Source of the DNA: Microcaldota archaeon
GTDB taxonomy: Archaea; Micrarchaeota; Micrarchaeia; Micrarchaeales; Micrarchaeaceae
Assembly (NCBI GenBank): GCA_021817565.1
Contig: JAKAUP010000006.1
Span: 1 to 49,637 of the forward strand
Length of the DNA stretch: 49,637 bases
Direction of reading: 5' to 3'
A program made the position numbers and the translations under genes. The notes below the pieces were generated by a model, which was not told where the DNA came from, searched no databases, and saw nothing but the letters and a program-made list of their open reading frames with translations. Below, piece by piece: positions 24,169 through 49,060 of this stretch (the first letter of the stretch is position 1; each line of letters begins with the position of its first letter).

Positions 24169-24177
24169 GTAAACGTG

Positions 24178-26048: not shown

Positions 26049-27046
26049 TGTTTATGGCGATAAATTTCGAAAGGCTCGTGTCAAGAAGGGTCGGAAAGAT
26101 GCTCCAGGATACGCTGAATCTCTCTGGCTCCCAAATGCTGTTGAATACCCTTCTGGAATACATGATCATCGGCTTCTTCGCGATAGTTATAGTGGGTTTG
26201 GGAGTAATGTCGCTCATCCTTAAACTCAAGGTGATCGAGGCCTTCCCAATAAGCGTGATATCTGGGCTGGTATATATAGTACTGATATATGGAGTATTGA
26301 ACTACAGATTGGACAAGCGCGCGACCACGATGGAAAGCATACTTCCTGAATATTTCCAGCTTGTAGCGGCAAACCTGCGCAGCGGAATGTCCATAGACAG
26401 GTCTATGCTCATAGCGGCAAGGCCAGAGTTTACCCCGTTTGCGGAAGATGTGCAGAAGATGAACAACAGGCTTTTCAGCGGTGAGAGCTTCGATGTTGCC
26501 CTACACAAGCTTGCCGCAAGCTATAGGTCAAACACGCTAACGCGTTCAGTAAGGCTGATATCGGAATCGTACAGGTTCGGGGGAAGGATGGCCGACCTGA
26601 TGGAGCAGATATCTAAGGACATAAGGAGTCAGCAGATAGTGCAGAAGGAGATAGCCGGACAGCTCTTCATGTACAGCATATTCATAGCCTTCGCAGGCCT
26701 TGTTGCTGCGCCCGTGCTCTACGGTCTTACTGGGGAGATGATAAAGATAACTGATACAGTATGGACAGGCATACTCGCAAGCAACCCAGGCGGATTGCCA
26801 TCAACCGGTTCCTCCTTCCTCAAGCCTCAACCGCCAGTGATAACAGTCGCACAGTACCACCTCTTCTCCTACATGGCAATTATTATAATAACAGGGTTCG
26901 CAGCGCTGATAATGGCTGCGATAAACTCCGGAAAGCCTGTGCGCGGAATCCGCCTCATACCTGTATTCATACTCATAGGTTTAGGTGTATTCCTGGTGGT
27001 TGGATCTGTGGTCGCAGGCCTCTTTGGGAGCATAGGCGCAGCCTAG
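26048..27046 (+). CDS. Second TadC/ArlJ-type pilus assembly membrane protein
   Basis: A paralogue of the preceding platform protein without the disordered tail. Seen: a short amphipathic start (INFERLVSRRVGKMLQDTL), helices LEYMIIGFFAIVIVGLGVMS and VISGLVYIVLIYGVL, the T2SSF core EYFQLVAANLRSGMSIDRSMLIAARPEF and SVRLISESYRFGGRMADLMEQIS, then LFMYSIFIAFAGLVAAPVLYGL and two further helices (MAIIIITGFAALIMAAI and FILIGLGVFLVVGSVVAGLFG). The ATG at 26048 overlaps the previous stop (TGATG); the frame can also open at GTG 26045 or ATG 26054. Two unlike platform proteins side by side suggest a heteromeric membrane base, as in Tad-type systems. It is the last gene of the operon; a new promoter precedes the next gene. 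Confidence 0.85.
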   Translation: MFMAINFERLVSRRVGKMLQDTLNLSGSQMLLNTLLEYMIIGFFAIVIVGLGVMSLILKLKVIEAFPISVISGLVYIVLIYGVLNYRLDKRATTMESILPEYFQLVAANLRSGMSIDRSMLIAARPEFTPFAEDVQKMNNRLFSGESFDVALHKLAASYRSNTLTRSVRLISESYRFGGRMADLMEQISKDIRSQQIVQKEIAGQLFMYSIFIAFAGLVAAPVLYGLTGEMIKITDTVWTGILASNPGGLPSTGSSFLKPQPPVITVAQYHLFSYMAIIIITGFAALIMAAINSGKPVRGIRLIPVFILIGLGVFLVVGSVVAGLFGSIGAA

Positions 27047-34079: not shown

Positions 34080-36527
34080 ATGTACGATCCAAAATCAGAA
34101 GAGAGGTGGAATGCCTACTGGAGGGAAACCAATCTGTTTAGGTTCGATAGGGAGAACACATCAAAGCCGGTCTTTACGATTGACTCGCCTCCCCCAAACA
34201 CAACCGGGGGCATGCATATGGGCCAGACATTCTGGGTATCATACATAGACAGCATAGCGAGGTACAAGCGTCTGAAGGGCTTCAATGTGCTTTACCCTCA
34301 GGGGTGGGATACGCAAGGCTTCCCGGTAGAACTGGAAGTGGAGAAGAGGTATGGGAAGAATATGCCGCGCGAAGAATTCTATAAGAGGTGCGTGGATTAT
34401 GCGAAAGAGACGATAATACTGATGAAGTCGCAGATGCTTAGGATGGGCGCAAGCTTCGATGAGTCGCTTGAGTACGTAACCATGTCTGATGACTACAGAA
34501 GAAAGGTGCAGCTTTCTCTGCTTGAGATGTATGATAAGGGATATGTTTACAGGGCATCCCATCCAGTGGAATGGTGCCCAAGCTGCAAGAGCTCCATAGC
34601 GAGAGAGGAGATAAACGAGACGGAGAAGGACACGTACTTCAATTATATAAGGTTTGGGCTGAAAGGCAGGAAAGGCGCAAAGGAGCACTATATAGAGATA
34701 GCCACAACAAGGCCTGAGCTGCTCCATGCATGCGTTGCGCTTGCAGTGAACCCGGACGATCCGAGATACTCGAAGGAGATAGGAAAGACGGCGATAACGC
34801 CGGTATACGGAAAGGAGGTGCAGATAATATCGGATCCAGGGATAGACAAGGAGCTGGGCACAGGCGCAGAGATGGTATGCACCTTCGGAGACAAGAACGA
34901 CATAAGCATGCATTACAGGCACAAGCTCCCGCTTATCGAGGCGATAGACGAGTCCGGCACACTGAAGAACGCAGGCAAATTCAGCGGGATGGACATACTG
35001 GAAGCGAGAAGCGCAATAATAAAAGAGATTGAGTCGGAGGGCAGCTTGGTAAAAAGGGAGCAGATGAAGCACAATGTGAAAGTGCATGACAGATGCTCCA
35101 CACCAATTGAACTGTTATCATACACGCAATGGTTCCTAAAGACAAAGGATTCATCAGAGAAGATAAAAGGTAACGCACTCTCCATAAACTGGATACCGGA
35201 GAGCGCAAAGCAGCGCCTCCTCGACTGGGCGGATTTCATCGAATGGGATTGGAACATATCAAGAAACAGGATCTTTGGGACGCCCATACCATTCTGGTAC
35301 TGCGAGGCCTGCGGAGAGATACTTCCCCCTAAAAGGGAGGAGCTACCTGTGAATCCAACTGTCGACGATCCGAAAGAAAAAGTATGCAGGAAGTGCGGTT
35401 CAACAAAGATAAAGGGAGAGAAGGATGTGTGCGATGTCTGGGTGGATTCGTCAATAACGCCGCTTGTGATAGCTGGCTGGCCAGACAACAAGGAGCTGAT
35501 GCAGCGTGCATTCCCATCCTCAGTAAGGATACAAGGAACTGACATAGTCAGGACATGGGCATTCTATACTGCATTCAGAATAGGCGCAATTACCGGAGAG
35601 AAGCCGTTCGAGAACCTGATAGTGCACAACATGATACTCAATGAAGAGGGAAAGGAGATGCACAAGAGCCTGGGCACTGGCATATCTCCGGAGAGCCTGA
35701 TTGACCGCTACTCCATAGATACGGTAAGGCTATGGGTTGCCGGTAGCGGAGGTATAGGTAAGGACAAACCTTTCTCGTATGGCGAGATGGAATACGCGAA
35801 GAGCTTCATATCGAAGCTGTACAACTCCGCCATATTCGTTAAAAACGCAATGGGTGAGACGCGTCTCCCGAAGGAAGAACCCCACAAGAGCTTCGGCGTC
35901 TTCGACTTCTGGATAATGAACAGGCTTAACGATGTGGTGGCAGATGTCGAGAAGGCATACGACTCATTCAACCTGTACGAGGCGACAAACAAGCTTATCG
36001 ATTTCTTTTGGCACGAGTTCTGTGATTACTATATAGAGAATGTCAAGTACAGGATAAGGGATGATACAAAGGTTCCGGCGAATAGCAAGAAGGCGGCCGT
36101 ATATACGCTTCACCATGTACTCAACAAGGTGCTTGTCATGCTTTCTCCTATAATACCCCATGCGGCAGAAGAGATAAATTCGATGTTCTCGAAAGAGAGC
36201 ATATTCATGAACAGCTTCCCTGAGCATGCGGAGAGGGAATCAAAGGCGGATTACATAATAAACGGTCTTGTATTCAAGAGCGCGATAGTGGATTTCGACT
36301 ACAACGATGCCGGAGCACTGCTCAACCGAATAATAGGCGAGGTAAGGAAGGAGAAAAGCAAGTCGAGGGCCGCGCTGAACAAGGAGGCAAAACGAATAAA
36401 TATAAATGTTCCTGAGGCATATTATACCGTGGTTTTTTCGTCAAGGCAGGAACTTCAGAACATCTGCAAAGCCTCTGAGATAAGCGTAACGAAGGGCGAT
36501 GAACTGCAAGTAAGCGTAGAATTATAA
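34080..36527 (+). CDS. valS: Valine--tRNA ligase, archaeal type, with altered KMSKS loop
   Basis: Charges tRNA-Val and edits mis-charged Thr. Seen in 815 residues: PPPNTTGGMHMGQTF with HMGQ in the place of HIGH; QGWDTQGFPVELEVEK; HPVEWCPSCKSSIAREEI (zinc-like knuckle); the CP1 editing domain with IATTRPELLHACVALAVNP and GTGAEMVCTFGDKND; DWNISRNRIFGTPIPFW; a CxxC zinc pair in CEACGE and CRKCGS; DVWVDSSITPL; GTDIVRTWAFYTAFR. The KMSKS loop reads GKEMHKSLGTG: Lys and Ser at the end are kept, but the first Lys is Glu and the Ser is His. The anticodon-binding domain follows (SFISKLYNSAIFV...). A TATA-like TTTTTATATTTAA lies about 40-50 bases upstream. uS15 and eS1 follow on the same strand. Confidence 0.93.
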   Translation: MYDPKSEERWNAYWRETNLFRFDRENTSKPVFTIDSPPPNTTGGMHMGQTFWVSYIDSIARYKRLKGFNVLYPQGWDTQGFPVELEVEKRYGKNMPREEFYKRCVDYAKETIILMKSQMLRMGASFDESLEYVTMSDDYRRKVQLSLLEMYDKGYVYRASHPVEWCPSCKSSIAREEINETEKDTYFNYIRFGLKGRKGAKEHYIEIATTRPELLHACVALAVNPDDPRYSKEIGKTAITPVYGKEVQIISDPGIDKELGTGAEMVCTFGDKNDISMHYRHKLPLIEAIDESGTLKNAGKFSGMDILEARSAIIKEIESEGSLVKREQMKHNVKVHDRCSTPIELLSYTQWFLKTKDSSEKIKGNALSINWIPESAKQRLLDWADFIEWDWNISRNRIFGTPIPFWYCEACGEILPPKREELPVNPTVDDPKEKVCRKCGSTKIKGEKDVCDVWVDSSITPLVIAGWPDNKELMQRAFPSSVRIQGTDIVRTWAFYTAFRIGAITGEKPFENLIVHNMILNEEGKEMHKSLGTGISPESLIDRYSIDTVRLWVAGSGGIGKDKPFSYGEMEYAKSFISKLYNSAIFVKNAMGETRLPKEEPHKSFGVFDFWIMNRLNDVVADVEKAYDSFNLYEATNKLIDFFWHEFCDYYIENVKYRIRDDTKVPANSKKAAVYTLHHVLNKVLVMLSPIIPHAAEEINSMFSKESIFMNSFPEHAERESKADYIINGLVFKSAIVDFDYNDAGALLNRIIGEVRKEKSKSRAALNKEAKRININVPEAYYTVVFSSRQELQNICKASEISVTKGDELQVSVEL

Positions 36528-36557
36528 TAAATTAATTACAATTATCGAGTGATCCCA

Positions 36558-37025
36558 ATGGCAAGAATGCATACCAAGAAGAAGGGAAAATCAAAATCAA
36601 GAAAGCCTATGCTGGACGGGAGCGTAGAGATAAAATCAGGATTGGGCAAGGAGGAGACGGAAAGGATAATAGTGCAGTACAGCAAGCAGGGCATGGGACC
36701 TACTGCGATAGGAGAGAAGCTCAAGAGGGAGCACAACGTGATGTATCCGAGCAGCACAATAGGCAAGAAGATAAACAAGTTCCTGAAGGAGAAGAAGGAG
36801 GCGAATGCGCTGCCGGACGACCTTCTTACCCTGATGGCGAAGGCGGTTAACCTGAACAAGCACATAGAGAAGAACAGGCAGGACAAGTCGAACACGCTGA
36901 ATATGAAGCGCACAGAAGCGAAGATATGGAGGCTTACAAAGTATTACATAAAGAAAGGAGTGCTTCCGGGCAACTGGAGGTATGATCCAAAGCAAGCAGA
37001 ACTTTTGATAAGAGGGAGGTCTTGA
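36558..37025 (+). CDS. rps15: Small ribosomal subunit protein uS15
   Basis: Binds the central domain of 16S rRNA in the small subunit. From ATG 36558 the protein (155 residues) begins MARMHTKKKGKSKS, the typical archaeal/eukaryotic S15 N-terminal extension, and continues with VEIKSGLGKEETERIIVQYSKQGMGPTAIG, the KREHNV segment, LMAKAVNLNKHIEKN, and RTEAKIWRLTKYYIKKGVLPGNWRYDP, which is the S15 core. A GTG at 36549 would add three residues; GAGTGATC before the ATG fits the anti-SD better. It lies 30 bases after valS and 4 bases before eS1. Confidence 0.96.
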   Translation: MARMHTKKKGKSKSRKPMLDGSVEIKSGLGKEETERIIVQYSKQGMGPTAIGEKLKREHNVMYPSSTIGKKINKFLKEKKEANALPDDLLTLMAKAVNLNKHIEKNRQDKSNTLNMKRTEAKIWRLTKYYIKKGVLPGNWRYDPKQAELLIRGRS

Positions 37026-37029
37026 TTAG

Positions 37030-37602
37030 ATGGCTGTTGGCAAGGTAGACAAATGGAAACTCAAGAAGTGGTATGACGTTAGCGCCCCGAAGCTATTCAA
37101 GGAAATGAATATAGGGGAAGTTCCTGCCAACTCCGATGCTGCGATGCAGAACAGGAACCTCGTGATCGACCTTTTCTCTATAACGAGCAACCCCGCGCAT
37201 ATGTACACAAACGTGCACCTTAAGGTATACGACGCGAGCGGCACAGCCGCAAAGACAAAGCTGATGGCTGTAGAGCAGCTTTACAGCTACATAAGATCGC
37301 TGTCAAGGAGGCACAAGACGCTCTCGGAGCTTGTGACGGAGGTTACCAGCAAGGACAACATCAAGATGGTTGTGAAGCTGATAGTTGTTGCCAATGGGAG
37401 GATAACCAGCTCAAGGAAGGACGGTATAAGGGATGAGGCAAGGAAGGTAATACACAATTATTTCAAAGAGAACAACGCAGAAGAGATAATAAATAACATC
37501 ATAGAGAAGAAGCTGCAAGGGGAAATCACAGCAAAGCTAAGTCACATAACCCAGATAAGCAAGGTGGAGATAAAGAAGCTGGAGATTCCGCAGGGAGTCT
37601 AA
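37030..37602 (+). CDS. rps3ae: Small ribosomal subunit protein eS1 (S3Ae)
   Basis: Archaeal/eukaryotic ribosomal protein near the mRNA exit of the small subunit. The 190 residues begin VDKWKLKKWYDVSAPKLF (the family's KDKWKxKxWYxVxAPxxF), and carry NIGEVPANSD, NRNLVIDLFSIT, KVYDASGTAAKTK and the SYIRSLSRRHKTL segment, with the expected C-terminal helix (RDEARKVIHNYFKENN). The ATG is 4 bases after the uS15 stop, so the two are cotranscribed. It is convergent with rad50, whose stop lies about 40 bases away. Confidence 0.96.
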   Translation: MAVGKVDKWKLKKWYDVSAPKLFKEMNIGEVPANSDAAMQNRNLVIDLFSITSNPAHMYTNVHLKVYDASGTAAKTKLMAVEQLYSYIRSLSRRHKTLSELVTEVTSKDNIKMVVKLIVVANGRITSSRKDGIRDEARKVIHNYFKENNAEEIINNIIEKKLQGEITAKLSHITQISKVEIKKLEIPQGV

Positions 37603-37643
37603 AAAAGAGGAAGATGCAGAAGTCAGATCAGATAAACAAATAA

Positions 37644-39944
37644 TCACAGCGCGCTTACTGTTGTATAAGATCCCTTTTCCTTATCGCGTTCAAGAAGGTA
37701 AACTTTCGCATTGCTTATCTGCTTGAGCTTCTCATCGTGCGTTATTATAAACACCTGCTCAAGTATCCTGGGAAGCGACTCACCGAATACGCTCACCAAT
37801 CTATATATCCCATTTGAGTCTATGTTGTGGGTCGGCTCGTCAAGTATGGTCCATCTAAGATTAGGCACAATCACCATCCCCATCGTTATTCGCATAGCCA
37901 AGCAGGCGACGCTCTTTTCACCACCGCTCGCGACGCTGCCTATCGGCATCCAGCTTTCATCCTCATCCCTCACAACGCACGCCTCAAGCGAATAGTCCTC
38001 ATTTTCGGCATTTATCCTGATCGATTTGTAGTCTCCATACGGGTAAAGCTCATCCCAGAGCCGTGCCATCGTCTCGTTTATCGAGAAGATCAGGCTGCTT
38101 CTCAGGCTGCTGCTTGTTGACCCAAGCGCCTTCTTGAACTTTGAGAGGTTTTCGAGGTAGGACGAGCGTCTATTTATCCTTTCCTTTATAGCGGAGAGCT
38201 TCCCTATCTCAACCTCCCTGTTTTTCACGTCTTCGGAAAGCTTTGATATGAGCGATGCGGCGTTATCCATCTTTGTGCGTATTATCCCAACATCGCCGTC
38301 CAATTTTGCGTATCTTTCCTGATGGAAGTTCAGCGCCTCCATATCCGCCTTCTCGCCGAGCGCCTCATGCTTCAATGTATCAAGCGATGCAGACGTGTTT
38401 CCGAGTTCGGCTGCTAACCTTTTTCTCCGATTAGCCCTGTCCTCGATGAACCTGAGTTGCTGCGCTCTTTCCCCTGCAGCTTTCATCTCCTCCTCTGCCG
38501 ACCGTTTGGATTTGCCGAGCTGATCAAGCCCGGCCTCCAACTCCGGCAGTTTTGCTTTCAGCGTTTCGACCTGCCGCTCCACATCGCCATAGCTGGACAG
38601 TCGCTTCCTCAGTGAAATCGCTCCAGCATAAGCATCAGACTTCTTCGAGCGTTCTACCCTCAATTTCTTTATATCGGAGCTTATCTGTTCTATCCTTGCT
38701 GCCGTCTCAGATACGAGCGCGTCCTTCCCCTTTAGGAGAGCTTCCTTCAATTGCGCGTCTATCTCGCGCTCGCAGACAGGACACACGCTTATGTGCTTCT
38801 TTAGCTCCCTGACCCATTCCATGGTCTCCTTCAGCTTCCTTTCCATTACTGCATTCTCTTTTGCCAGCTCCTCCATTCTCTTCTCAAGCGTATCGCATTC
38901 CGCCTTAAGTCTATCCTCGTCCAAACGTCCAAGCTCCTCGCCTATCTTCCTCTTCTCTTCAGCCGATTTTTGTGCGTGCTCAATCTCAGACCTGCACGAT
39001 GCAATCGTGCGTATCAGTTCCCTCTCTGCAGAGAGAGCCTTCTCGTATGCGGTCTTGGCCTTCAGCTCCGTTCTTGCTGCCTCCACAATAAGCGATTCAA
39101 CCCCATCCTCCTCCACAGACTGCTTCCCAAGCTTATCCATCTCCTTCTCTATGGTTTCCTTCCTTGCCTTTGCCTTCTCAATCTCAGAGAGCACCTTCAT
39201 CCTCCTATTGTATGCCTCTCTTACCTTTTCCAAATCAGCTTTAGCAGAGTCCATCTCCTTTGTTTTTTCTTCCAGCTCAGTGCGTATGCTTCTGAAACTT
39301 TCTCTTTCCCGCTGCAGCGCATCGTTCGAGCTTTGGAGCAGTTTACGCATAGACTCAACGTCCATGTTTGCTACTATCTGCTCCTCATCCTCCAGCATGG
39401 ACCTTATGCTGTTTATTACTGTTGTTATTCTCTCTTCGGCCTTCGCGAAGTTATCAAGCCCAAGCATCCCGTCTATCTGCCTCTTTCTCTCCCCCTTTGT
39501 TATATCGAGGAAGTACAGGAGACCGTTCTGTTCTGAGTATATCGCTCTTGAAAAAACATCATAATCAACTTTGAGTATCCTTGATATCTCTTCGTTAACG
39601 CGTTCCGGCTGGGTCTGGAAAACACTGCCGTTCCTTGTCAGCGTAGCCGTGCTTCCCTTTTTCTGTATGGTGCGTGTAACCTGGTAATGTTCGCCATCGA
39701 TCTCAAGCGAAAGAGAGATCTCGCTCTGCGATTCCTGGCTAGGTCTGTCCATTATAAGCGAGTCTATCTTGAAAGCCCCCCTCTTAAGCGCAGGAAAGGT
39801 GCCAAAAAGCGCGAAGGATATCGCATCCATCACGGAACTCTTTCCCGAACCCATAACCCCGACAAGAAGGTTTATCCCGTTCCCAAACTCGAGGCGCGTG
39901 TCCTTATGCGTTCTCCAATTCTTTAGCCTTATAGAGGAGATCAT
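37644..39944 (-). CDS. rad50: Rad50 DNA double-strand break repair ATPase
   Basis: SMC-like ATPase that with Mre11 tethers and processes DNA ends. From ATG 39944 (MISSIRLKNWRTHKD) it has 766 residues: Walker A GVMGSGKS at 29-36, Q-loop region, a long coiled coil, the zinc hook CPVC (Cys388, Cys391) in ISVCPVCEREID, a return coiled coil, signature SGGEKS and Walker B TILDEPTHNID with D-loop. The frame opens with TTG 39959, but AGGTGT seven bases before 39944 decides the start. The protein is somewhat shorter than many Rad50s (about 850-900). mre11, herA and nurA are not in the window. It follows aEF1-beta on the same strand. Confidence 0.95.
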   Translation of the reverse strand: MISSIRLKNWRTHKDTRLEFGNGINLLVGVMGSGKSSVMDAISFALFGTFPALKRGAFKIDSLIMDRPSQESQSEISLSLEIDGEHYQVTRTIQKKGSTATLTRNGSVFQTQPERVNEEISRILKVDYDVFSRAIYSEQNGLLYFLDITKGERKRQIDGMLGLDNFAKAEERITTVINSIRSMLEDEEQIVANMDVESMRKLLQSSNDALQRERESFRSIRTELEEKTKEMDSAKADLEKVREAYNRRMKVLSEIEKAKARKETIEKEMDKLGKQSVEEDGVESLIVEAARTELKAKTAYEKALSAERELIRTIASCRSEIEHAQKSAEEKRKIGEELGRLDEDRLKAECDTLEKRMEELAKENAVMERKLKETMEWVRELKKHISVCPVCEREIDAQLKEALLKGKDALVSETAARIEQISSDIKKLRVERSKKSDAYAGAISLRKRLSSYGDVERQVETLKAKLPELEAGLDQLGKSKRSAEEEMKAAGERAQQLRFIEDRANRRKRLAAELGNTSASLDTLKHEALGEKADMEALNFHQERYAKLDGDVGIIRTKMDNAASLISKLSEDVKNREVEIGKLSAIKERINRRSSYLENLSKFKKALGSTSSSLRSSLIFSINETMARLWDELYPYGDYKSIRINAENEDYSLEACVVRDEDESWMPIGSVASGGEKSVACLAMRITMGMVIVPNLRWTILDEPTHNIDSNGIYRLVSVFGESLPRILEQVFIITHDEKLKQISNAKVYLLERDKEKGSYTTVSAL

Positions 39945-39992
39945 GGGCACACCTGCCAATATTTGCGCAAGGAGGGTTTAAGTATTTGGGGT

Positions 39993-40238
39993 TCAGAGCA
40001 GGCTTTCCTGCTCTACTTCGACTTCCTCGACGGAGCTCAGCGCCCTTAAGCCATCCTCTATCTGTGAAGAGCTTTTCTCCGCGTTGTCGTAAGTGAATAG
40101 CACCTTTATCGCCTTTATTCCGAATCCGATCTCTTCCTCGCGTATGTCCTTCGGGGAGAGTGTTCTTATCTCGTCAAGCGCCTTCTGGAGCTCTCCCTCC
40201 TTTGCGTAAACCTTGAATATTATCATTACTCCAGACAT
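39993..40238 (-). CDS. Translation elongation factor aEF1-beta
   Basis: Nucleotide-exchange factor that recycles aEF1-alpha from GDP to GTP form. 81 residues with the family's ferredoxin-like fold: MIIFKVYAKEGELQKALDEI, then IREEEIGFGIKAIKVLFTYDNAE (compare 'EPIAFGLKAL...' in archaeal homologues) and a C-terminal SSVEEVEVEQESLL typical of the '.V..vEv.....' ending. The ATG at 40238 overlaps the stop of the zinc-ribbon gene (TGATG); the GTG at 40241 is less likely. Adjacent zinc ribbon and aEF1-beta genes are a known archaeal arrangement. rad50 follows. Confidence 0.92.
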   Translation of the reverse strand: MSGVMIIFKVYAKEGELQKALDEIRTLSPKDIREEEIGFGIKAIKVLFTYDNAEKSSSQIEDGLRALSSVEEVEVEQESLL

Positions 40239-40396
40239 CACGGTCCCTCAAAGTTGCATTCCTTGCACTTGTATGTGTTTGACCTTCTCCTGCAATGCTC
40301 GCACCTTATTATCTTATCGTTCCCGCACTTGGGGCATAAGAACTCCGTGTAATTGTGGGAAAGCCTGCCGCACGATGAACAGACCTTTCCAGGCAA
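40238..40396 (-). CDS. Zinc-ribbon RNA-binding protein (COG2888-like)
   Basis: A small gene easily missed because it starts with TTG. The 52 residues contain four zinc knuckles: CSSC, CPKC, CEHC and CKEC, in the order V-CSSCGRLSHNYTEFL, CPKCGNDKIIRCEHCRRR, SNTYKCKECNFEGP. This is the conserved archaeal zinc-ribbon protein that accompanies aEF1-beta and is thought to act in translation. No ATG or GTG occurs in frame before the first cysteine; TTG at 40396 gives MPGKVCSSCG. An AGGTGATG lies about 14 bases upstream, a little far for a ribosome site. The TGA overlaps the aEF1-beta ATG. Function in detail is unknown. Confidence 0.85.
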   Translation of the reverse strand: MPGKVCSSCGRLSHNYTEFLCPKCGNDKIIRCEHCRRRSNTYKCKECNFEGP

Positions 40397-40431: not shown

Positions 40432-42255
40432 TTACCTTCTTGCCCTATTTATTCTTTTCGGTCGTGGTCTGCCTCTTGATAAAACCAGCGAGCCAAGCGA
40501 TATGACAATGCTTATAATTGAGAGGGCTATGGCAAAGACCGCTATGAGCAATACCTTCGCATAGTATTGTGCGCCGGTATAAGCGCTGCTCTGCGGTATT
40601 GTCGTGCTGCTTGTTGTAGGATTTAGCCCATTTCCTATATTCATAGTGTCATTGCTTATCTGGTTCGCTATAAGAGCAGTTTGGTAGGCGGAGTATGCGT
40701 AATAATAGGAAGCGGTCGAATTATCCGCCTTTGTTAAAGATTCATTTACATAGAAGAGCGCATCATTTGCGAACTCTGTTCCCCATATCCCGTATGTGGA
40801 GTTGTCTGCTGTCGATACTGCCATGCTCCTGAGCGCTGCGGGTGTAGCGTTCTGCTCCAGTGCGGCAGTGCCATCTGCGTAAGCGTAATCCGCAGCGTAT
40901 ATCGCAGCCCCGTAATCGCCACTATCATAAAGCTGCTTTGCAGAGTTAAGATAGAATCCAGGGAATGCTGAAGCCCGGGTTATCCTGGAATAGGCAAGCG
41001 ATTTTACGCTGCTTGAATATGACACAGGAATTCCGCCAATGCTCTGCGCAGCATTGTACATAAACGAGGAGGCCTTGCACCATGCATACGATTCGCCTAT
41101 GTTGCCCGCCATCCTGAGCAGCGTGTCTGTGTCTATCTGCGAGAGGTTTGAAGGTACTGTTGTATTTAGGGTTAGGTTTGCCCAACTCTGCCTCAGTTCC
41201 CCGCCTATCACATAAGCGTAGTTTGTGCTTGTAAGTTCAGGCGGAAAGAGTGCCGAGCAGTACGCACCAGTGGAGTTCAGTGCAGCGAATGTCGCCGGTA
41301 TGGTGGTTGAGTGCGAGAGGAATGTATAAGTCTCTACGTAGTCCAGGAACTCCATGTCGGCAGACGTGTACAGGTAACCCTTGCTTGCGACTACATTCGC
41401 CTCATTGTTGAGCGAGTACAGTTGTGCGGCAGTGCCTCCGAAGCCTTTCTGGCTTGAAAGGTTGCCTATTGCTGCATTGCTGAAGTTTAAGGTAAGGTTC
41501 TGGATGTTTTGGAAGCCAGGCAGGTAGCAAGGTCCGGAACATTTTAGGGTTGCATTCGGAACCGAATCAACGCTGTAGTTAACATAGAAGTCGTATGATG
41601 TCTGGTGTCCAGCAGGCTTTTCATATCCGAAGGCAAATTCAGCCGCCTGTGATATATTCGATACCTGCACCAACGGAATCCCGAAATTCTCCTCAGTTAT
41701 GAGGTATATGATATCCTCTGTAGAGCCTGCAGGTACTGAAGGCACCAGCACAAAGCCAAGCTTGTGCAGGAATGCTGCGGAAGCCTTGTCATACACTCCC
41801 CCAATCTCGCCTATGCTGCCATTCGGCATTATGGTTCCAGTCATGGTAAAGTTGTGCAGCAGCGGCTTTCCCGATAGCGCAGATACCGCAAGCATCGTCA
41901 TGGCTGCGCCAGCGCTCGGTCCTGATACATTTGCATTGCTGTCCATTATTCTGTAATTAAAGTCGTAATGGGACTCATTCATATGGAGGTAAGCAGACGC
42001 ATAATTCGCAGCCCCATAAGCGGACTGTATGGTGCTGTTCCCGACATGCGCAGGTCCGGTTATGGCTACGGTCCCGTTCCCGCTGCTTACTGTCAGGTTT
42101 ATTACCGTAAGGGTGCCCGTGTTGTTGTTGAGAAGCACAGCAGGCGCATAGATGTAAGCGCTCCCTACATATGAAGCAGAAGTGGAAGCAGAAGCAACAG
42201 AAGCGATTGAACCGATCGAAGTCAAAAAGACCAGCGCTATCCAAAGGAGTTTCAT
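40432..42255 (-). CDS. Secreted/membrane Lon-type (S16) serine protease
   Basis: Seen: signal peptide (KLLWIALVFLTSIGSIASVASA), then a Lon-type proteolytic domain with catalytic Ser114 in GPSAGAAMTM and Lys157 in IGGVYDKASAA, separated by GTIMPNGSIGEIGG as in Lon. There is no AAA+ ATPase domain. A long helical/Asn-rich extracytoplasmic region follows, and the C-terminus has one membrane helix (VLLIAVFAIALSIISIVISLG) and a basic tail (RGRPRPKRINRARR). This layout matches the archaeal COG1750-type putative secreted Lon-like proteases. The active site would face outside the cell. It heads a minus-strand gene run (zinc ribbon, aEF1-beta, rad50), with 35 bases to the next gene. Substrate unknown. 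Confidence 0.85.
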   Translation of the reverse strand: MKLLWIALVFLTSIGSIASVASASTSASYVGSAYIYAPAVLLNNNTGTLTVINLTVSSGNGTVAITGPAHVGNSTIQSAYGAANYASAYLHMNESHYDFNYRIMDSNANVSGPSAGAAMTMLAVSALSGKPLLHNFTMTGTIMPNGSIGEIGGVYDKASAAFLHKLGFVLVPSVPAGSTEDIIYLITEENFGIPLVQVSNISQAAEFAFGYEKPAGHQTSYDFYVNYSVDSVPNATLKCSGPCYLPGFQNIQNLTLNFSNAAIGNLSSQKGFGGTAAQLYSLNNEANVVASKGYLYTSADMEFLDYVETYTFLSHSTTIPATFAALNSTGAYCSALFPPELTSTNYAYVIGGELRQSWANLTLNTTVPSNLSQIDTDTLLRMAGNIGESYAWCKASSFMYNAAQSIGGIPVSYSSSVKSLAYSRITRASAFPGFYLNSAKQLYDSGDYGAAIYAADYAYADGTAALEQNATPAALRSMAVSTADNSTYGIWGTEFANDALFYVNESLTKADNSTASYYYAYSAYQTALIANQISNDTMNIGNGLNPTTSSTTIPQSSAYTGAQYYAKVLLIAVFAIALSIISIVISLGSLVLSRGRPRPKRINRARR

Positions 42256-42303: not shown

Positions 42304-42909
42304 ATGATGGGTAAAAAAGAGAATGGGATAAGGGAGCTCAAGAGCGCGCTGAAGCTGTTGAAAAGGGAGAACCTTCAACTAAAGAGAAAGCTGGAGAAGG
42401 CGGAGATGGACAAACTTACCGGCATGCTTACTAGGCAAGCAGGAGAGGCAAGGCTGTATGCAGAGCTAGACCGTTTCTCAAGAGAGCGGAGGTTTCCAAT
42501 AAGTATGGTCTTTGTCGATGGGGACAACGTAAAGGCGATAAACGACAGATACGGCCACAAAAGAGGGGATCTTACCATTCGCGCAATATCCGACGCGATA
42601 ATGAAGGCAAAGAGGCTATACGATATAGCATTCAGGTATGGGGGAGATGAATTTGTGGTTGTGCTGCCGGATACCGGGAAAAACGGGGCGAAAGATTTTT
42701 CTGGAAGACTTGAAAGGATTCTAACTGAATTTGGTCATATATCACGTAGCGATCAGACCGCCCTGAGCGCATCGATAGGCGCAGCCACATTAGGCGTAAA
42801 TCAAATAGGCGGCATAAGGAGCATGGCCAAGATGCTATTGGACATAGCGGACAAGGACATGTATAAGAAAAAAAGAGCAAAAAAGGAAACAAGGATGGCG
42901 CCAACTTAA
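42304..42909 (+). CDS. GGDEF-domain protein, probable diguanylate cyclase
   Basis: Diguanylate cyclases condense two GTP to cyclic di-GMP. This 201-residue soluble protein has a short coiled-coil N-terminus (ELKSALKLLKRENLQLKRKLEKAEM) leading straight into a full GGDEF domain: DKLTGMLTRQAG (36-47), metal-binding VDGDNVKAINDRYGHKRGD (71-89; Asp72 and neighbours), RYGGDEF (111-117) with active-site motif intact, and IADKDMYKKK (181-190). The inhibitory I-site RxxD is present as RLYD (104-107), exactly five residues before GGDEF. So active site, metal site and feedback site all look functional. No sensor or membrane domain is fused. The gene is divergent from the Lon-like protease and convergent with the histone-like gene. 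GGDEF proteins are rare in archaea. Activity is inferred from motifs. Confidence 0.88.
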   Translation: MMGKKENGIRELKSALKLLKRENLQLKRKLEKAEMDKLTGMLTRQAGEARLYAELDRFSRERRFPISMVFVDGDNVKAINDRYGHKRGDLTIRAISDAIMKAKRLYDIAFRYGGDEFVVVLPDTGKNGAKDFSGRLERILTEFGHISRSDQTALSASIGAATLGVNQIGGIRSMAKMLLDIADKDMYKKKRAKKETRMAPT

Positions 42910-42930: not shown

Positions 42931-43212
42931 CTACCATCTTCCCTTGTGTGTTGATATCAGTACTGCCGCCGCCCCAATCTTTTTGAGTCCTCTCTTTTTA
43001 GTGAACCTGATTGCTTCCGAGGCGTACTCAGCAGCCTTCTCTGCGAGCAAGCTTTTCAGTGCGGCAGAGGCGGTCTCGTCTACTTCCAGCGAGCACTCGT
43101 TCTCAAATAGTTCGCTAAAGTCCTTTTCTTTCAATAGTTCGGTTGCCCTGCCTTTTGCTTGCCCATCCCCCCTAGGCTTTCTCAGACCAGACACTATCCC
43201 TATTCTTTCCAT
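42931..43212 (-). CDS. Histone-fold-like small protein
   Basis: From ATG 43212 (MERIGIVSGLRKPRG), preceded by GGTGGAT as ribosome site, the product has 93 residues. The C-terminal half reads LEVDETASAALKSLLAEKAAEYASEAIRFTKKRGLKKIGAAAVLIS, which can be aligned with archaeal histone helices 2 and 3 ('VS..A...L...LE......A.EAI..A.HAGRKTIKAEDIELA'): matching are the V-x3-A start, the EAI motif, the (R)G-K-K-I loop and the following helix. The first part is basic, and helix 1 is not clear. The resemblance is moderate, so another helical DNA-binding or unrelated fold is possible. A TATA-like TTTATATATC lies at about 43249-43258. Probably monocistronic. Confidence 0.5.
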   Translation of the reverse strand: MERIGIVSGLRKPRGDGQAKGRATELLKEKDFSELFENECSLEVDETASAALKSLLAEKAAEYASEAIRFTKKRGLKKIGAAAVLISTHKGRW

Positions 43213-43474
43213 CCCAATCCACCTTCCCAATATGATTACTCTTTTCAGATATATAAAGGATACTAAAAAGAGCCAATTGCGGAACTTTCTAACAATTATC
43301 TAGAATCGAATTGCAGTTATATTTTATTCTCGTCAAAAACGCCTAAGGCAAAGCATATTAAATTGGAATAGGGAAGTAGGGAAAATAAGCGCATAATCAA
43401 TAGAGCTATAAGTAAACAATAAACACTAAAGCATAAAAATTTGTAGTGGCATATGTCATCAAAGGGTAGGAAAC

Positions 43475-44557
43475 TTGAAAGCAAAAATCAAAATCATAAT
43501 TATAATCGGAATTCTGTTGGCATTGGCGCTTGTTTATGCGAGTTTCCTCCAATCAATAATACCCTCACATTGTACGTTATCATACGGCTTTGAATGCAAC
43601 GCTGTGGTATTCGGAACCAACACGACAACGCACAACATAACGATTGCGATGGCTATAACGAACAACATGTCAATGCCATTAGAGAATACCAACCTAACAA
43701 CCACATACCAAGGTGTAAACTACACCGGCCCATGTTCGCCAACATACATAAAGGAAGGCGCTTCATCTATATGCGTATTCAACATACCGGAAAAAGTGAA
43801 TCTGGGGCAGTATGTAGCTTCCCCCATATACATCACCGGGGAACAATGTGTGCCTTTTGGGGGCAACCAATGCTTTTCAAAGCAAAAAGAGATTTATGAA
43901 GGAAGCATGAAGGTTCATGCAACAAGTTATGTCTCGCTAAGCACAAAATTAAACTTATATGCAAACACCTCCACCCAGCAAGAGGGACAGAAAGTGCTGA
44001 TAAGTGCATATCTCACGCTGTTGGGCTATCCTGTAAGCGGAGGCAATGTTACCTTTGCGGTGAACAATCCCAACTTTACAATAACGCCCTCCCAGGAACT
44101 TACCTCATCGTCAGGCTATGCTTATGCTGTGTTATATGGTGGAACAACCGGAGCCATAACAATTACTGCAACATACGCATCAATACAAAAGAATATCACA
44201 TTAAGATTCTACCAGCTACCGCAGCAGCCATCGTCATATTCGACCGTAGCTTCGAGTACAACAAAACCGACATCATCAACAACAATATCGTTCACTACAA
44301 CAATATTCCCAATAGGGCTCACCACTTCGACATCAACAAAAACCACAACGACCACAACCATCCCATCTCAATACTCATCGTCCTCATCTTCTTCCAGTTC
44401 TTCATCATCGTCCTCATCTTCTTCCAGTTCTTCATCATCATCTTCATCCAGTTCCTCATCATCGTCCTCATCCTCCTCAAGTTCCTCCTCAAGCTCATCG
44501 TCCTCCTCCACGTCTTCAAAAATAACTAGCACATGTAAATCTTGTCAGAACCCATAA
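43475..44557 (+). CDS. Surface protein, pilin-like paralogue with 45-serine tail
   Basis: 360 residues. N-terminal membrane helix (KIKIIIIIGILLALALVYASF), then a domain closely related to the one at 45386 (HCTLSYGFECNAVVFGTN onward; GVNYTGPCSPTY; SGGNVTFAVNNPNFTITP; LTSSSGYAYAVLYGG), i.e. Ig/beta-type repeats with cysteines. A Thr/Ser linker is followed by 45 consecutive serines and a short end with two cysteines (CKSCQNP). The leader lacks the QxA(V/M)E pilin cleavage motif present in the paralogue, so it may stay in the membrane. The start is TTG at 43475, five bases after GGGTAGG; an ATG at 43453 is in another frame. Possibly a stalk-like cell-surface protein. Confidence 0.75.
   Translation: MKAKIKIIIIIGILLALALVYASFLQSIIPSHCTLSYGFECNAVVFGTNTTTHNITIAMAITNNMSMPLENTNLTTTYQGVNYTGPCSPTYIKEGASSICVFNIPEKVNLGQYVASPIYITGEQCVPFGGNQCFSKQKEIYEGSMKVHATSYVSLSTKLNLYANTSTQQEGQKVLISAYLTLLGYPVSGGNVTFAVNNPNFTITPSQELTSSSGYAYAVLYGGTTGAITITATYASIQKNITLRFYQLPQQPSSYSTVASSTTKPTSSTTISFTTTIFPIGLTTSTSTKTTTTTTIPSQYSSSSSSSSSSSSSSSSSSSSSSSSSSSSSSSSSSSSSSSSSSSSSTSSKITSTCKSCQNP
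44375..44509 (+). repeat. Serine-codon tract (45 codons)
   Basis: All 45 codons encode Ser, using both TCN and AGY codons, with internal near-repeats of about 33 bases (TCATCGTCCTCATCTTCTTC followed by CAGT and a return to TCATC). Mixed codon classes mean the poly-Ser product, not only the DNA repeat, is likely maintained. The tract is prone to slippage. Confidence 0.9.
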
Positions 44558-44759
44558 AATAAGAATTAGGCACATTTTATGGGCGCAAACCCTAAAAATA
44601 AGGCGAAACGAGAGTAGCTGTAGTTATCTATATTCGGCATCAGAAACTTCCATAATAATACAAAAAGACACTCCCATGTCCAACCAAACTTGCTGAACAA
44701 AATTGCTTAAACTGTAAATATACTCACCAATTTTCTATCCGCACACAAGAGACACATCA

Positions 44760-44772
44760 ATATATAAAAATG
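44760..44772 (+). promoter_or_regulatory. TATA box of tRNA-Met
   Basis: ATATATAAAAATG at about 44760-44772 precedes the tRNA 5' end (44804) by about 38 bases, so a short 5' leader is expected. The 17 bases ATATATAAAAATGGTTA also occur before the pilus-type operon at about 21272. Confidence 0.5.
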
Positions 44773-44803
44773 GTTAGGGCAATACTTTATTCAAGCCAAG
44801 CAA

Positions 44804-44922
44804 GGCGAGGTAGCTCAGCTGGTTAGAGCGCTAGACTCATATGCAAAGCATCATGAGTGACGAGCATTTATATGCTGTGACGAGAAATCTAGAGGCCGCG
44901 GGTTCGAGTCCCGCCCCCGCCA
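44804..44922 (+). tRNA. tRNA-Met(CAT) with a 45-nt intron
   Basis: Acceptor stem GGCGAGG pairs with CCCCGCC except one A5-C68 mismatch, discriminator A. D-arm GCTC-AGCTGGTTAG-AGC, anticodon stem CTAGA/TCTAG, T-arm GCGGG-TTCGAGT-CCCGC are complete. The anticodon loop spans 52 bases; splicing after position 37 leaves CTCATA-A, anticodon CAT. Next to the loop CTC/GAG can pair with a three-base AAA bulge on the 3' side, as in a bulge-helix-bulge. CAT could mark elongator Met or an agmatidine-modified tRNA-Ile; not initiator Met. Inside the intron AGCAT/ATGCT can pair, and GTGACGAG occurs twice (44857 and 44877). CCA is not clearly encoded. Confidence 0.82.
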
Positions 44923-44950
44923 ACCAATCCAACAGTACTGCAGTGGATAA

Positions 44951-45097
44951 AAGACGAAGCAAAAATGGTATACCCACATTGAAGAACTATACAATTTTCT
45001 GGAAGTGTATGAGACGAATAGAGATATTTATCCCACTCTGATAGAATTCTATCCAGAAATTATCAAAAAATTAGAAAGCCTGCTACTTAGCAAATAA
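44951..45097 (+). pseudogene. Coding remnant after tRNA-Met; rest of 44923-45385 holds no gene
   Basis: One frame without a start codon encodes a protein-like helical peptide of 48 residues, with IEELYNFLEVYETNRDIY and later EIIKKLESLLLSK before TAA. It opens just after an in-frame stop and begins about 30 bases beyond the tRNA gene. It looks like the C-terminal end of a lost gene, perhaps from an element inserted at the tRNA, but I cannot name the family. The rest of this 463-base gap contains only the hairpin at 45281 and a TATA box at 45357. Confidence 0.3.
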
Positions 45098-45280
45098 TCT
45101 ATTCGCCAAAGCACATCTTTTCACTGCGTATGGCAGAGCAGCGGACAGTAAACCTATAAGCGGGAGAGTCGCATATACCTCTAATAAAACGCGAGATGCA
45201 ATCATCATAATCTGAACCTGCGCACGTGCCCTTGCAGCAAATTCCCACAAAGCTAGCAATTAATTACATAAATAATATTA

Positions 45281-45302
45281 AGGAGCGACGAACTACGCTC
45301 CT
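45281..45302 (+). other. Stem-loop AGGAGCG/CGCTCCT
   Basis: A perfect 7-pair stem (AGGAGCG-ACGAACTA-CGCTCCT) lies between the tRNA-Met remnant and the propeller-pilin gene, followed by CTT. It may be a terminator or a small structured RNA. It sits about 55 bases before the TATA box of the next gene. Confidence 0.35.
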
Positions 45303-45356
45303 CTTCAGAATGCTGGGCAGAAACCATTAATAATCAGAAAGAGGCAGGGAAACAAA

Positions 45357-45366
45357 CTTTTATAAG
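45357..45366 (+). promoter_or_regulatory. TATA box giving a leaderless start at 45386
   Basis: CTTTTATAAG is centred 25 bases before the ATG at 45386, so transcription should begin at or next to the start codon. The same 10-mer lies between tRNA-Gln and the M50 gene (20533-20542). Confidence 0.6.
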
Positions 45367-45385
45367 ACTTGTTTGGGTAAATATC

Positions 45386-47311
45386 ATGGTGAAACTGTTG
45401 GCAAAGACCAAGAGAATGGCTGCCAGAAGTAAAAGGATTGCAAAGGCGGCAGTCAAAAAGAAGGAGAGGGAACAGGCAGCAGTAGAGTACCTCTCAATAT
45501 ACGGCTGGGCGCTTCTTATCATAGCAGCAGTGTTTGCATTCGTTCTTATCTATGTGAGTCTGCCTCAGTCGATAGTGCCATCACATTGCACCATATCCCT
45601 GGGGTTCCAGTGCAACGCTGTGGTATTCGGAACCAACACTACAACGCACAACATAACGATCGCAATGGCGGTAAGCAACAGACTATCTGAAACCTTGGAG
45701 AGTCCGAACCTCACAATCACATACGACGGCGTAAACTACACCGGTCCATGTTCGCCAACGTATGTGCCTCCGGGCGCATCGTCCATATGTGTATTCAACA
45801 TACCTAAAAAGGCGAATCTGGGCCAGTATGTATCATCGCCGATATACATCACGGCAAAGGACTGCGGTCTGTCGGTCAACAACTCGTGCGCATCAGCGCC
45901 AAAGGAGGTGTACGCGGGGAACATACAGGCGCACGCGACAACGTATGTTGCGCCAAACGCTTCACTGACATTGTCAGCAAACTCTTCCTCGCCATTTGAA
46001 GGACACAAGGTTCTAATAACAGCATACCTGACGCTCTTCGGATATCCGATAAGCGGAGGCAACGTAAACTTCACTGTGAACAATCCAAACTTCACAGTAA
46101 CGCCGCAGCAGGAGCTCACATCCTCATCGGGTTACGCATACTCAGTACTATATGGAGGGACAACGGGAACCGTAACAATCACTGCAACATACGCTTCAAT
46201 CCAAAAGAGCATCACATTCACATTTGAACCTACAACGTCAACCACCACAACCACCATATCTACATCAACCACCACAACCTCATCTTCAACAACAACCTCA
46301 ACTTCATCCACATCAACCGACATAACCTCCTCTTCAACAACCACAACAGGCACATCAACAACAACCGTAAACTACGCTTATGTGGTAGTAAGCGCATCTG
46401 GCGGTCCTGCAATACAGATAATACAGAATGGTGCATCATTGGGGTATATCTACCCGAGCGGTACTGGTTTCCCAAATGCTTATCACGTCGCATTTGATCC
46501 GAACGGAAAGTACGCGTGGGTCACAGATTTCGGAAATGACGGCCCTATATATGTAATAAATACAACATCTGCAACTGAGGTGAATACAATTCCAAATACC
46601 TGTTATAGCACTGGGATAGCGTTTGCACCAAACGGTACTCTCGCATACGTTACTTGTGGGCAGTTGCAGAGCCAATCCTCCGATGACATAGAGGTATTCA
46701 ATGCTTTGGATAATGGGAAATCTGGCAGCATAAAGACCAACTACTATTCCGGAGCCTTCAACCAGACTGCAATAGCAGTCGCGTCAAACGGAATAATAGC
46801 ATATGTAACGCAGAACACAACCGGAGGGAACCAGAACGTATCAGCCATAAAACTCACAGGAACAATGGTAAACCTTAGCAAGATATCCCCATACGGCCTC
46901 AACATCAATTCATTCCCCAATCCGAGCGGGGTGTCATTCAACCCAAACGGAGATTATGCATATGTTACATCAAAGGGAAATGACGGTCCTATAAGTGTCA
47001 TACAGACATCGACAAGTAGCAAGGTTGCCACAATATCATCCGGCTATTACAGCTGCGACATCGCAGTGCTGAACAGCGGAACGAGCGCTTATGTTGCAGA
47101 TTGCGCGAACTCAAACGGCGCAACGCCAGAACTCGGAATAATAAGTTTGACCAACAATGGGGAAACAGGTAGCGTTAATAGCTATATAACTCTCGGCGGT
47201 GCACCTGCCGGGGTCGCCGTTGCGCCTTCCAACTTCCTGAGTACAACATCACTTCCACCAACAACAATTAAGGGTGGCGGTTCAACGTGCAACTCTTGCA
47301 AGTTGCAGTAA
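45386..47311 (+). CDS. Pilin-like leader fused to Ig-type domains and a beta-propeller
   Basis: 641-residue surface protein. A very basic start (MVKLLAKTKRMAARSKRIAK) precedes a type IV pilin-like leader QAAVEYLSIYGWALLIIAAV; cleavage before Gln places Glu at +5. Residues about 65-275 are the same Cys-containing beta domains as in the paralogue at 43475 (HCTISLGFQCNAVVFGTN; SGGNVNFTVNNPNFTVTP). A Thr/Ser-only linker (about 280-330) leads to a YVTN/NHL-type propeller with repeated blades: ASGGPAIQIIQNG, HVAFDPNGKYAWVTDFGNDGPIYVIN, GIAFAPNGTLAYVTCG, GVSFNPNGDYAYVTSKGNDGPISVI, DIAVLNSGTSAYVADC. It ends CNSCKLQ. A pilin tip carrying a propeller would be a plausible adhesin. ATG 45386 is leaderless. 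GalE-like gene is convergent. Confidence 0.8.
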   Translation: MVKLLAKTKRMAARSKRIAKAAVKKKEREQAAVEYLSIYGWALLIIAAVFAFVLIYVSLPQSIVPSHCTISLGFQCNAVVFGTNTTTHNITIAMAVSNRLSETLESPNLTITYDGVNYTGPCSPTYVPPGASSICVFNIPKKANLGQYVSSPIYITAKDCGLSVNNSCASAPKEVYAGNIQAHATTYVAPNASLTLSANSSSPFEGHKVLITAYLTLFGYPISGGNVNFTVNNPNFTVTPQQELTSSSGYAYSVLYGGTTGTVTITATYASIQKSITFTFEPTTSTTTTTISTSTTTTSSSTTTSTSSTSTDITSSSTTTTGTSTTTVNYAYVVVSASGGPAIQIIQNGASLGYIYPSGTGFPNAYHVAFDPNGKYAWVTDFGNDGPIYVINTTSATEVNTIPNTCYSTGIAFAPNGTLAYVTCGQLQSQSSDDIEVFNALDNGKSGSIKTNYYSGAFNQTAIAVASNGIIAYVTQNTTGGNQNVSAIKLTGTMVNLSKISPYGLNINSFPNPSGVSFNPNGDYAYVTSKGNDGPISVIQTSTSSKVATISSGYYSCDIAVLNSGTSAYVADCANSNGATPELGIISLTNNGETGSVNSYITLGGAPAGVAVAPSNFLSTTSLPPTTIKGGGSTCNSCKLQ

Positions 47312-47316
47312 TAAAA

Positions 47317-48279
47317 CTACAACTTAAATCTCTCGACCAAATGGTCGATAGTTATATCTACTGCTTGATGTGATTCATGCTTGTAGCTAAAGCCAGTGTT
47401 TTTTAACTTTTGATTGCTTATGTACGTTTCGACCACATCCCCCAATAGCGGCGACGTGTCCATGGTATATCTTATAACACAGTTCTCCGATACTTTGTCA
47501 GTAATCCTTCTTACAATCTGATCTACGCTAAGCAATTCGTCAGTAGAAACATTAAACACCTCATCTCTCAGACCTTTGTCATACGTGTGCAGTATTGCGT
47601 CTATCAGGTCATCAACCAACATATAAGCGCGCTTCTGCATCCCACGACCAATAACTTCCAAACTTTCCTTGCTTTTTGAGAGTTTATCAACCATCTGTAT
47701 GAGTATACCATGGCTGTAATTATTCCCAACAACATTTGCGAACCTATATATAAGATACCCAAGGCCGGCTCTTTCAGAATAACTTCTTATAAGGTTCTCT
47801 GCGGCCAGTTTGCTCGCAGCATAGCTGGAAACGGGGAGTGCTTTTCCTCTATCTGTATAATCCTCACTGGTGGGCAATTCAGAAGCATTCCCGTATACTG
47901 CGCTTGTGGATGAGAATATTATGTTTTTGACGCCATGCTTCTCCATCACATCCAATATATTTAAAGTGCCTATTATCCCTATATTTATGTCCAACCATGG
48001 TGATTTCATCCCCTTCACTATATCTGCATTTGCAGCCAAATGTATGACAAGGTCAAATTTGACATCAGAAAAAAGCTCCTCTAAAAGCTGTTTGTTCAGT
48101 ATATCTCCTTCTACAAACCTAAAATTTTGATATCTGAATGCGTTTTTAATGAACGCTTTATTTCCAGAACTTAGGTTATCGTAGGCCACAACGCTATTTC
48201 CAAGATCCAGTAACCGCTGAATCATATTGCTGCCTATGAACCCAGCCCCCCCAGTAACTAGGATTTTTTTGCTCTCCAT
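47317..48279 (-). CDS. NAD-dependent NDP-sugar epimerase (GalE family)
   Basis: Short-chain dehydrogenase of the extended type acting on UDP-glucose/galactose or a related sugar nucleotide. Seen in 320 residues: the NAD loop GGAGFIGSNMI (10-20), acidic YDNLS, HLAANADIV, SST at 124-126 with Ser125, catalytic Tyr153 and Lys157 in SYAASKLAAEN, YRFANVVG and GRGMQKRAYMLVDDLIDAI. The YxxxK and the 'R.Y..V.D' element are typical of GalE-like epimerases and not of SDR reductases in general. A product sugar for glycosylation of the many NxT/S surface proteins nearby is a reasonable inference. It stands alone on the minus strand and is convergent with the propeller-pilin gene. Confidence 0.85.
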   Translation of the reverse strand: MESKKILVTGGAGFIGSNMIQRLLDLGNSVVAYDNLSSGNKAFIKNAFRYQNFRFVEGDILNKQLLEELFSDVKFDLVIHLAANADIVKGMKSPWLDINIGIIGTLNILDVMEKHGVKNIIFSSTSAVYGNASELPTSEDYTDRGKALPVSSYAASKLAAENLIRSYSERAGLGYLIYRFANVVGNNYSHGILIQMVDKLSKSKESLEVIGRGMQKRAYMLVDDLIDAILHTYDKGLRDEVFNVSTDELLSVDQIVRRITDKVSENCVIRYTMDTSPLLGDVVETYISNQKLKNTGFSYKHESHQAVDITIDHLVERFKL

Positions 48280-48351
48280 TATAAATCAGCTATGATGCAT
48301 ATGTTTAGAAAGTTTTATAATTCCTTAGCGCACAAATAATATGGTGTTAAT

Positions 48352-48573
48352 ATGGCAGAGAGAATTTCCGAAGAGAGAATTACAAGGGAAGAAGGATACC
48401 TATACTACTTAGGCAAAGATGGTTTTGTATGGCAAAACCCTACGAGGTCAAATAAATCTGGATCAAAACGAAAGGTAGGGAATGAATGCGTTAACAGAGA
48501 AAAAGGTTATATATACTTTGTTGACAGCGATGGATATGTATCAAGGGCAAAGCAGGGAAGGAAGAAAGAATAG
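48352..48573 (+). CDS. Small protein with two GYxYxxxxDGxV repeats
   Basis: 73 residues made of a charged leader and two similar units: REEGYLYYLGKDGFVWQNPTR and REKGYIYFVDSDGYVSRAKQG. Each has Arg-Glu before a GYxYxx(D/K)xDGxV beta hairpin and a basic end. I have seen such small repeat proteins in other archaea but know no function. The ATG follows GGTGTTAAT, and a TATA box (GTTTTATAATT) at about 48312-48322 precedes it. Highly basic, so nucleic acid binding is conceivable. The pilin-like gene at 48605 follows closely with its own TATA box. Confidence 0.65.
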   Translation: MAERISEERITREEGYLYYLGKDGFVWQNPTRSNKSGSKRKVGNECVNREKGYIYFVDSDGYVSRAKQGRKKE

Positions 48574-48604
48574 GTATTTAAGTCTAACCGTCTATTAGTA
48601 TTTA

Positions 48605-49060
48605 ATGTCAGGTGAAAAAATGGTAAACAAGGTAACGAAAGGCCAATCGGCTATGGAATACCTAATGACATATGGGTGGGCGATACTCATAATTGCGATA
48701 GTTCTGGTAGCATTCTTCGGATTGCACTTGTTCAGCAGCCCTGTAGGAGTTTCTTGCAGAGCAGAATCAGGATTTGTGTGCAGCAACCCGATATACAGCG
48801 GTAATGTGTTAACTGTGCAGATAGGTCAGGGAACTGGTAACCAGTGGAACACCGTATCATACGTAATGAATGGAACTGGTATAACAGGTACTATTACTGG
48901 CACTATAACATCTGGAGGCACAACGCTAGCAAGTGGAAGCTTGGATACCGTAACATTCCAGATACCGGCAACCGACTCTTCCCCAGGAAACATATACGCA
49001 GAATACACATTCGACACAAACACATACAACTCTCTGATAGGAATAGCAACATTCCCATAA
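48605..49060 (+). CDS. Pilin-like protein (QSAMEYLMTYGWAIL leader)
   Basis: 151 residues. Short basic leader (MVNKVTKG) then QSAMEYLMTYGWAILIIAIV with Glu at +5 after the predicted cleavage, the classic archaeal pilin-like N-terminus found often in DPANN genomes. The mature part has cysteines (VSCRAESGFVCSNPI) and Gly/Thr-rich beta sequence (TGTITGTITSGGTTLASG). The TATA box (GTATTTAAG, 48574-48582) is 26 bases before ATG 48605, so leaderless; alternatively ATG 48620 is preceded by AGGTGA, in which case the first ATG is only leader. A second, mosaic copy of its Cys-rich segment lies at 49132. Probably a substrate of a pilus assembly system like that at 21-27 kb. Confidence 0.75.
   Translation: MSGEKMVNKVTKGQSAMEYLMTYGWAILIIAIVLVAFFGLHLFSSPVGVSCRAESGFVCSNPIYSGNVLTVQIGQGTGNQWNTVSYVMNGTGITGTITGTITSGGTTLASGSLDTVTFQIPATDSSPGNIYAEYTFDTNTYNSLIGIATFP

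Follow-up and report, generated by a model that had tools for sequence, protein, structure and literature searches.

The window (the whole stretch of 49,637 nucleotides analysed here) is contig 6 of a 775-kb, 97% complete archaeal genome (G000), and it holds the gene of a GGDEF protein, listed with its motifs and surroundings in Table 1. The encoded protein matches PF00990 over the full domain (positions 1-160 of 161; E=7.8e-31; 107.5 bits against a cut-off of 23.8) and TIGR00254 (E=3e-32; 111.6 bits against 37.4), and none of the 11,744 ORFs of 20 dinucleotide-shuffled windows matched the GGDEF family profile even at E<=10. It is the single strong GGDEF domain of the genome. The complete set of motifs announced by the original prediction was confirmed by both family matches and by residue positions, including the location of the I-site five residues before GGDEF, with R104 and D107 in place and IAFRY in between. 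N80 and D89 line up with the guanine-binding Asn and Asp of WspR, the remaining cyclase hallmarks are represented by D36 (in DxLT) and the C-terminal lysine K190, and the metal Asp, the base Asn, GGDE and the Arg and Asp of the I-site are kept in 20/20 aligned proteins. As judged from its sequence, the protein is a complete and probably active diguanylate cyclase with an I-site; PADLOC gave no defence-system match for it.

Table 1. Features of the GGDEF locus, in window positions
Feature	Position	Strand	Basis or remark
Conserved archaeal block: class I tRNA synthetase, uS15- and eS1-like ORFs, Rad50-like, aEF-1B	34080..40241
Lon-type (S16) protease domain without ATPase domain	40432..42255	-	Divergent neighbour of GGDEF
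TATA-box-like TTTTAAAA	42278..42285		19-26 nt upstream of start codon
GGDEF protein (predicted diguanylate cyclase), 201 aa	42304..42909	+	ORF, Pfam, TIGR00254, structure model
N-terminal leucine-zipper-like helix, residues 2-34	42307..42405	+	AlphaFold2 model, heptad pattern
VDGDNVKAIND, residues 71-81; metal ligand D72, guanine-binding N80	42514..42546	+	Alignment
GHKRGD; guanine-binding D89	42553..42570	+	Alignment
RLYD, residues 104-107; primary I-site (RxxD)	42613..42624	+	Alignment
RYGGDEF active-site loop; GGDEF = residues 113-117	42634..42654	+	Alignment
99-aa protein, weakly similar to archaeal histone HMfA (E=0.035)	42931..43230	-	Convergent neighbour

Gene neighbourhood and synteny

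The GGDEF gene is chromosomal. Its divergent neighbour encodes a Lon-type protein, probably exported, which has a C-terminal membrane helix and in which the Ser and Lys of the dyad seem, by eye, to be present. This head-to-head pair is kept in G202, the only further species of the genus in which the search met the GGDEF gene, with 67% identity between the Lon-type proteins. The element ATTCTTTTAAAACCTAC, inside the 34-48 bases that separate both genes in the two species, is identical in G202, and its position would suit an archaeal TATA box and a leaderless transcript. On the other side, the likeness of the convergent ORF to histone HMfA is tentative, and an ORF on the + strand overlapping it shows 57% identity in G202. 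The conservation extends further, as the order class I tRNA synthetase, uS15-like, eS1-like, Rad50-like, aEF-1B, Lon-type and GGDEF in G202 is that of the window (the uS15 and eS1 labels of the two small ORFs were read from the sequence). Between the two species, identity is 61-81% for the core genes (synthetase to aEF-1B) and 53% for the GGDEF protein, which evolves faster than these neighbours; such divergence between two species indicates long residence. Together with the archaeal markers of the contig (RNase P RNA, aEF-1B and further archaeal genes), this synteny upholds the view that the gene lies in a genuine archaeal genome, between archaeal flanks.

Predicted structure and the zipper helix

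The AlphaFold2 model, built with 54 sequences (pLDDT 94.7), consists of a single helix leading into a full GGDEF fold. Neither the model nor a Pfam search disclosed a sensor domain, and the N-terminal helix is all that precedes the GGDEF domain, as had been anticipated. The best Foldseek match was 3i5c, a GCN4 zipper fused to the GGDEF domain of WspR (E=3e-15), followed by WspR, GcbC, SiaD and the coiled coil plus GGDEF of Caulobacter DgcB (7e6g and 6ttr for the last two), the top matches being cyclases exclusively. The resemblance to the GGDEF domain of WspR from Pseudomonas, which is also among the top two PDB sequence matches, lies in a zipper helix running straight into a GGDEF domain with an RxxD I-site. 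However, WspR, which acts in a kinase pathway, has a receiver domain that the archaeal protein lacks, and the register of the zipper relative to DxLT differs. SiaD of P. aeruginosa and Caulobacter DgcB share with our protein the architecture of coiled coil plus GGDEF and the fold. SiaD is among its best NCBIfam equivalogs, but the score against equivalog NF038266 (97.8 bits) is far below the cut-off of 290, so that the archaeal protein is no SiaD equivalog; the case further differs from SiaD and DgcB in that the host is an archaeon without PilZ, EAL or HD-GYP.

The a and d positions of the helix are occupied by I9, L12, L16, L19, N23, L26, L30 and A33, and the G202 protein has identical heptad spacing, with Asn at the same place; the heptad score of the window helix is modestly above that of shuffled versions (p about 0.03). 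A clear 3-4 periodicity was also found in the stand-alone GGDEF proteins of the phylum (46, see below), with hydrophobic peaks of the zipper profile at -7, -10, -14, -17, -21, -24 and -28 from DxLT and Leu being commonest at -7, -14, -21 and -28. This profile is close to the coiled-coil spacing reported for diguanylate cyclases with N-terminal coiled coils (PMC8041772). In contrast, the zippers of the window protein and its G202 counterpart have their second contact row at -6/-13/-20 instead of -7/-14/-21, out of phase with both the phylum pattern and GCN4-WspR, and the register of an active dimer is therefore not assured in this pair.

GGDEF proteins across the phylum

GGDEF enzymes had been presented as rare in archaea, which does not apply to this phylum: PF00990 scored above the cut-off in 112/301 genomes, a few of these being the degenerate regulator described below. 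The distribution is patchy in the window's family, with a strong match in 10/85 genomes. Weak PF00990 matches (E about 1e-4) were checked and belong to a different protein. Nor could the presence of the domain in DPANN archaea be regarded as new. In the open-licence literature on GGDEF in such archaea, only three reports touch on the matter: a groundwater study counting cyclase genes in ultra-small cells (PMC9938205), a 2018 census that deals with a GGDEF of Methanocella, gives one archaeal GGDEF as known and considers an inactive one as possible contamination (PMC5847659), and a 2021 work that mentions many BLAST hits in Asgard and DPANN archaea and states that two model archaea gave no detectable c-di-GMP (PMC8646023). 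The proteins treated in the last two are like ours in the GGDEF domain, and the available sections of both give no analysis of motifs, architecture or partners of the DPANN proteins.

We examined 69 GGDEF proteins of the phylum in detail, 46 of them stand-alone. The metal Asp and the catalytic Glu are present in all 69, whereas the metal Asp, both base-binding residues and GG(D/E)E are jointly intact in 55, of which 43 also have RxxD (39 and 37, respectively, among the 46 stand-alone proteins). With one possible exception, the proteins of the window's order are short, sensor-less and devoid of transmembrane helices; in other orders the domain is often preceded by 170-276 residues, for the most part without Pfam match. 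In L021, L025, L136, L144, L141 and similar loci of these other orders, an N-terminal region of 210-276 aa, again mostly lacking a Pfam match and a transmembrane helix, is a possible undescribed sensor domain. With respect to the product, the original prediction left room for a cGAMP-like molecule. Hypr-type enzymes, which would make cGAMP or another cyclic dinucleotide, do have the same fold and GGDEF motif, and no known c-di-GMP receptor was found, but the Hypr enzyme GacA has a Ser (S347) instead of the guanine-binding Asp (PMC6456294). That marker Ser is absent from the window protein, where D89 is present along with N80, and the Asp is found in 62/69 phylum proteins, which makes such a product very unlikely.

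Phylogenetic placement, also suggested at the outset, was done with the GGDEF domains of the phylum and 80 bacterial domains taken among the matches listed. The archaeal domains are scattered among the bacterial ones, with 14 label changes, at least two of them forced by well-supported branches, in a poorly resolved tree in which most forks are weak. This scattering points to several exchanges with bacteria. The interleaving, with the nearest bacterial relatives at 39-40% identity among the matches listed, could also accommodate bacterial contamination or a very recent acquisition without a role in the archaeon, yet the same gene, gene order and promoter element occur in the independently assembled G202, archaeal core genes are present on the window contig, and the GGDEF proteins of the two species have diverged as described above. 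We regard this option as improbable in the extreme, contamination as such being ruled out by the G202 synteny and the conserved promoter element. A phage origin was also rejected, phage GGDEFs being only distant (identity of at most 37.5% among the matches listed). In the annotated loci, no neighbour gene is common to GGDEF across the phylum, and the Lon-type gene lies beside it in the window's own genus only. A K+-channel/TrkA_N gene adjoins GGDEF in L036-L039 (four genomes of one genus) and in L044, from another family.

Partners and possible roles of the cyclase

The genome search for partners that had been proposed gave a uniform result for the window's own genome, where EAL, PilZ, HD-GYP and MshEN are all absent; positive controls were matched in each case. 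PilZ was found in 0/301 genomes of the phylum, HD-GYP (HD_5) and MshEN in 0/59 relatives, and the only protein over the EAL cut-off in the 301 genomes is a GGDEF-EAL protein. The own genome therefore has no complete c-di-GMP circuit of known type. The GGDEF-EAL protein (L002/L031), located on a 6.4-kb contig (G063:C42), is possibly contamination or a recent transfer. The c-di-GMP riboswitches RF01051 and RF01786 gave 0/59, but control genomes gave no match either; a search that lacked a positive control match found no SiaC partner, and the c-di-AMP synthase (DAC) is absent from the own genome and present in 5/59 relatives. Three DHH-family proteins are encoded in the own genome, and one of them, a 327-aa DHH-DHHA1 protein of NrnA-like architecture (G000:C2), is a possible candidate hydrolase of pGpG or c-di-GMP.

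These data bear on the proposal that c-di-GMP made by the GGDEF protein controls the genes for pili and surface proteins in the window, which does contain pilus-type T2SSE and T2SSF genes (22672-27046) and pilin-like or Big_1 surface proteins (43475-49060). Such control now appears highly improbable: besides the lack of PilZ throughout the phylum genomes, MshEN is absent from the pilus ATPase, the pilus genes are at least 15 kb away from GGDEF, and no pilus gene is present among the annotated GGDEF neighbours in other genomes.

A second GGDEF-like domain of the own genome belongs to a wHTH-REC-inactive-GGDEF response regulator (L177:5650-6861, the same as G000:C3:254664-255884, - strand), and it is degenerate, with an NSDEF motif and no I-site. 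This regulator is present in 158/301 genomes (76/85 in the window's family and 68/79 in the sister family) and is a core gene of the order. A WspR-like, REC-inactivated GGDEF regulator has been described in Ca. Micrarchaeum acidiphilum (PMC5847659), apparently of the same archaeal group, and from the wide occurrence of such a regulator in the two families the phylum of the window is very probably Micrarchaeota; regulators of this type share the GGDEF fold with the window cyclase but differ from it in being encoded by a separate gene, with NSDEF and no I-site, and in not being catalytic. The presence of the regulator in 158 genomes argues against the doubt about contamination expressed in that census. 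Behind the gene there often come three conserved genes that lack a Pfam match, and in several genomes a GAF/PAS histidine kinase lies near it. Its conserved neighbours in L177:3527-5675 (-) and L180:4553-5533 (-), of 191, 276, 226 and about 330 aa and without Pfam match, are candidates for its pathway.

A GGDEF protein need not act through c-di-GMP, as reported for staphylococcal GdpS, whose role is independent of this molecule. Had the window protein been retained for contacts with other proteins or for nucleotide binding, this would account for the lack of hydrolases and receptors, of which none of a recognised type was found, and the clearly inactive GGDEF of the core regulator indicates that the fold is used non-catalytically in the order. 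Nevertheless, even very divergent copies have preserved the catalytic residues jointly with those of base binding and of the I-site, something that a purely structural role would not require, and the appearance of such loss can be seen in the inactive paralogue. We thus consider a role without c-di-GMP unlikely.

The explanation we favour, and hold to be probable, is that of a stand-alone cytosolic zipper-GGDEF c-di-GMP synthase, dimeric, sensor-less, product-inhibited and of bacterial ancestry. Its fold, motifs, zipper pattern and synteny, as well as the absence of the tested partners, were computed; we infer the catalytic activity, the product, the feedback, the constitutive dimer and the degradation route. 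The leucine-zipper helix would pair two GGDEF domains with no need of a sensor domain, and the dimer would condense two GTP molecules into c-di-GMP across its interface. Binding of the product to the RxxD I-site, together with gene expression, would probably restrain the output in place of a fused sensor. The gene would be an old chromosomal one, of bacterial descent and kept in the genus, and zipper-GGDEF proteins of a similar kind occur throughout the phylum; the receptor would lie outside the recognised bacterial kinds tested, and the DHH-DHHA1 protein could degrade the product.

c-di-GMP is regarded as a bacterial messenger. While the protein itself joins a known kind, the unusual point is a phylum with GGDEF in over a third of its genomes, mostly intact among those examined, in which recognised receptors are lacking and hydrolases nearly so. 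Either these archaea have c-di-GMP signalling with undiscovered receptors, or intact-looking cyclases serve otherwise. Only tentatively would we propose a phylum-wide c-di-GMP signalling in which zipper cyclases without sensor make the signal, while the proteins that bind and hydrolyse it differ from all those known in bacteria and may include the DHH-DHHA1 protein or the core HTH-REC-inactive-GGDEF regulator.

Other observations in the window concern an Rfam tRNA match (60 bits, 119 nt) at 44804-44922 (+), not reported by ARAGORN, which probably carries an intron, a surface protein at 43475-44557 (+) that ends in a long run of more than 40 serines, and the G+C content of positions 1-10000, which is 33-41% versus 44-50% in the remaining window.
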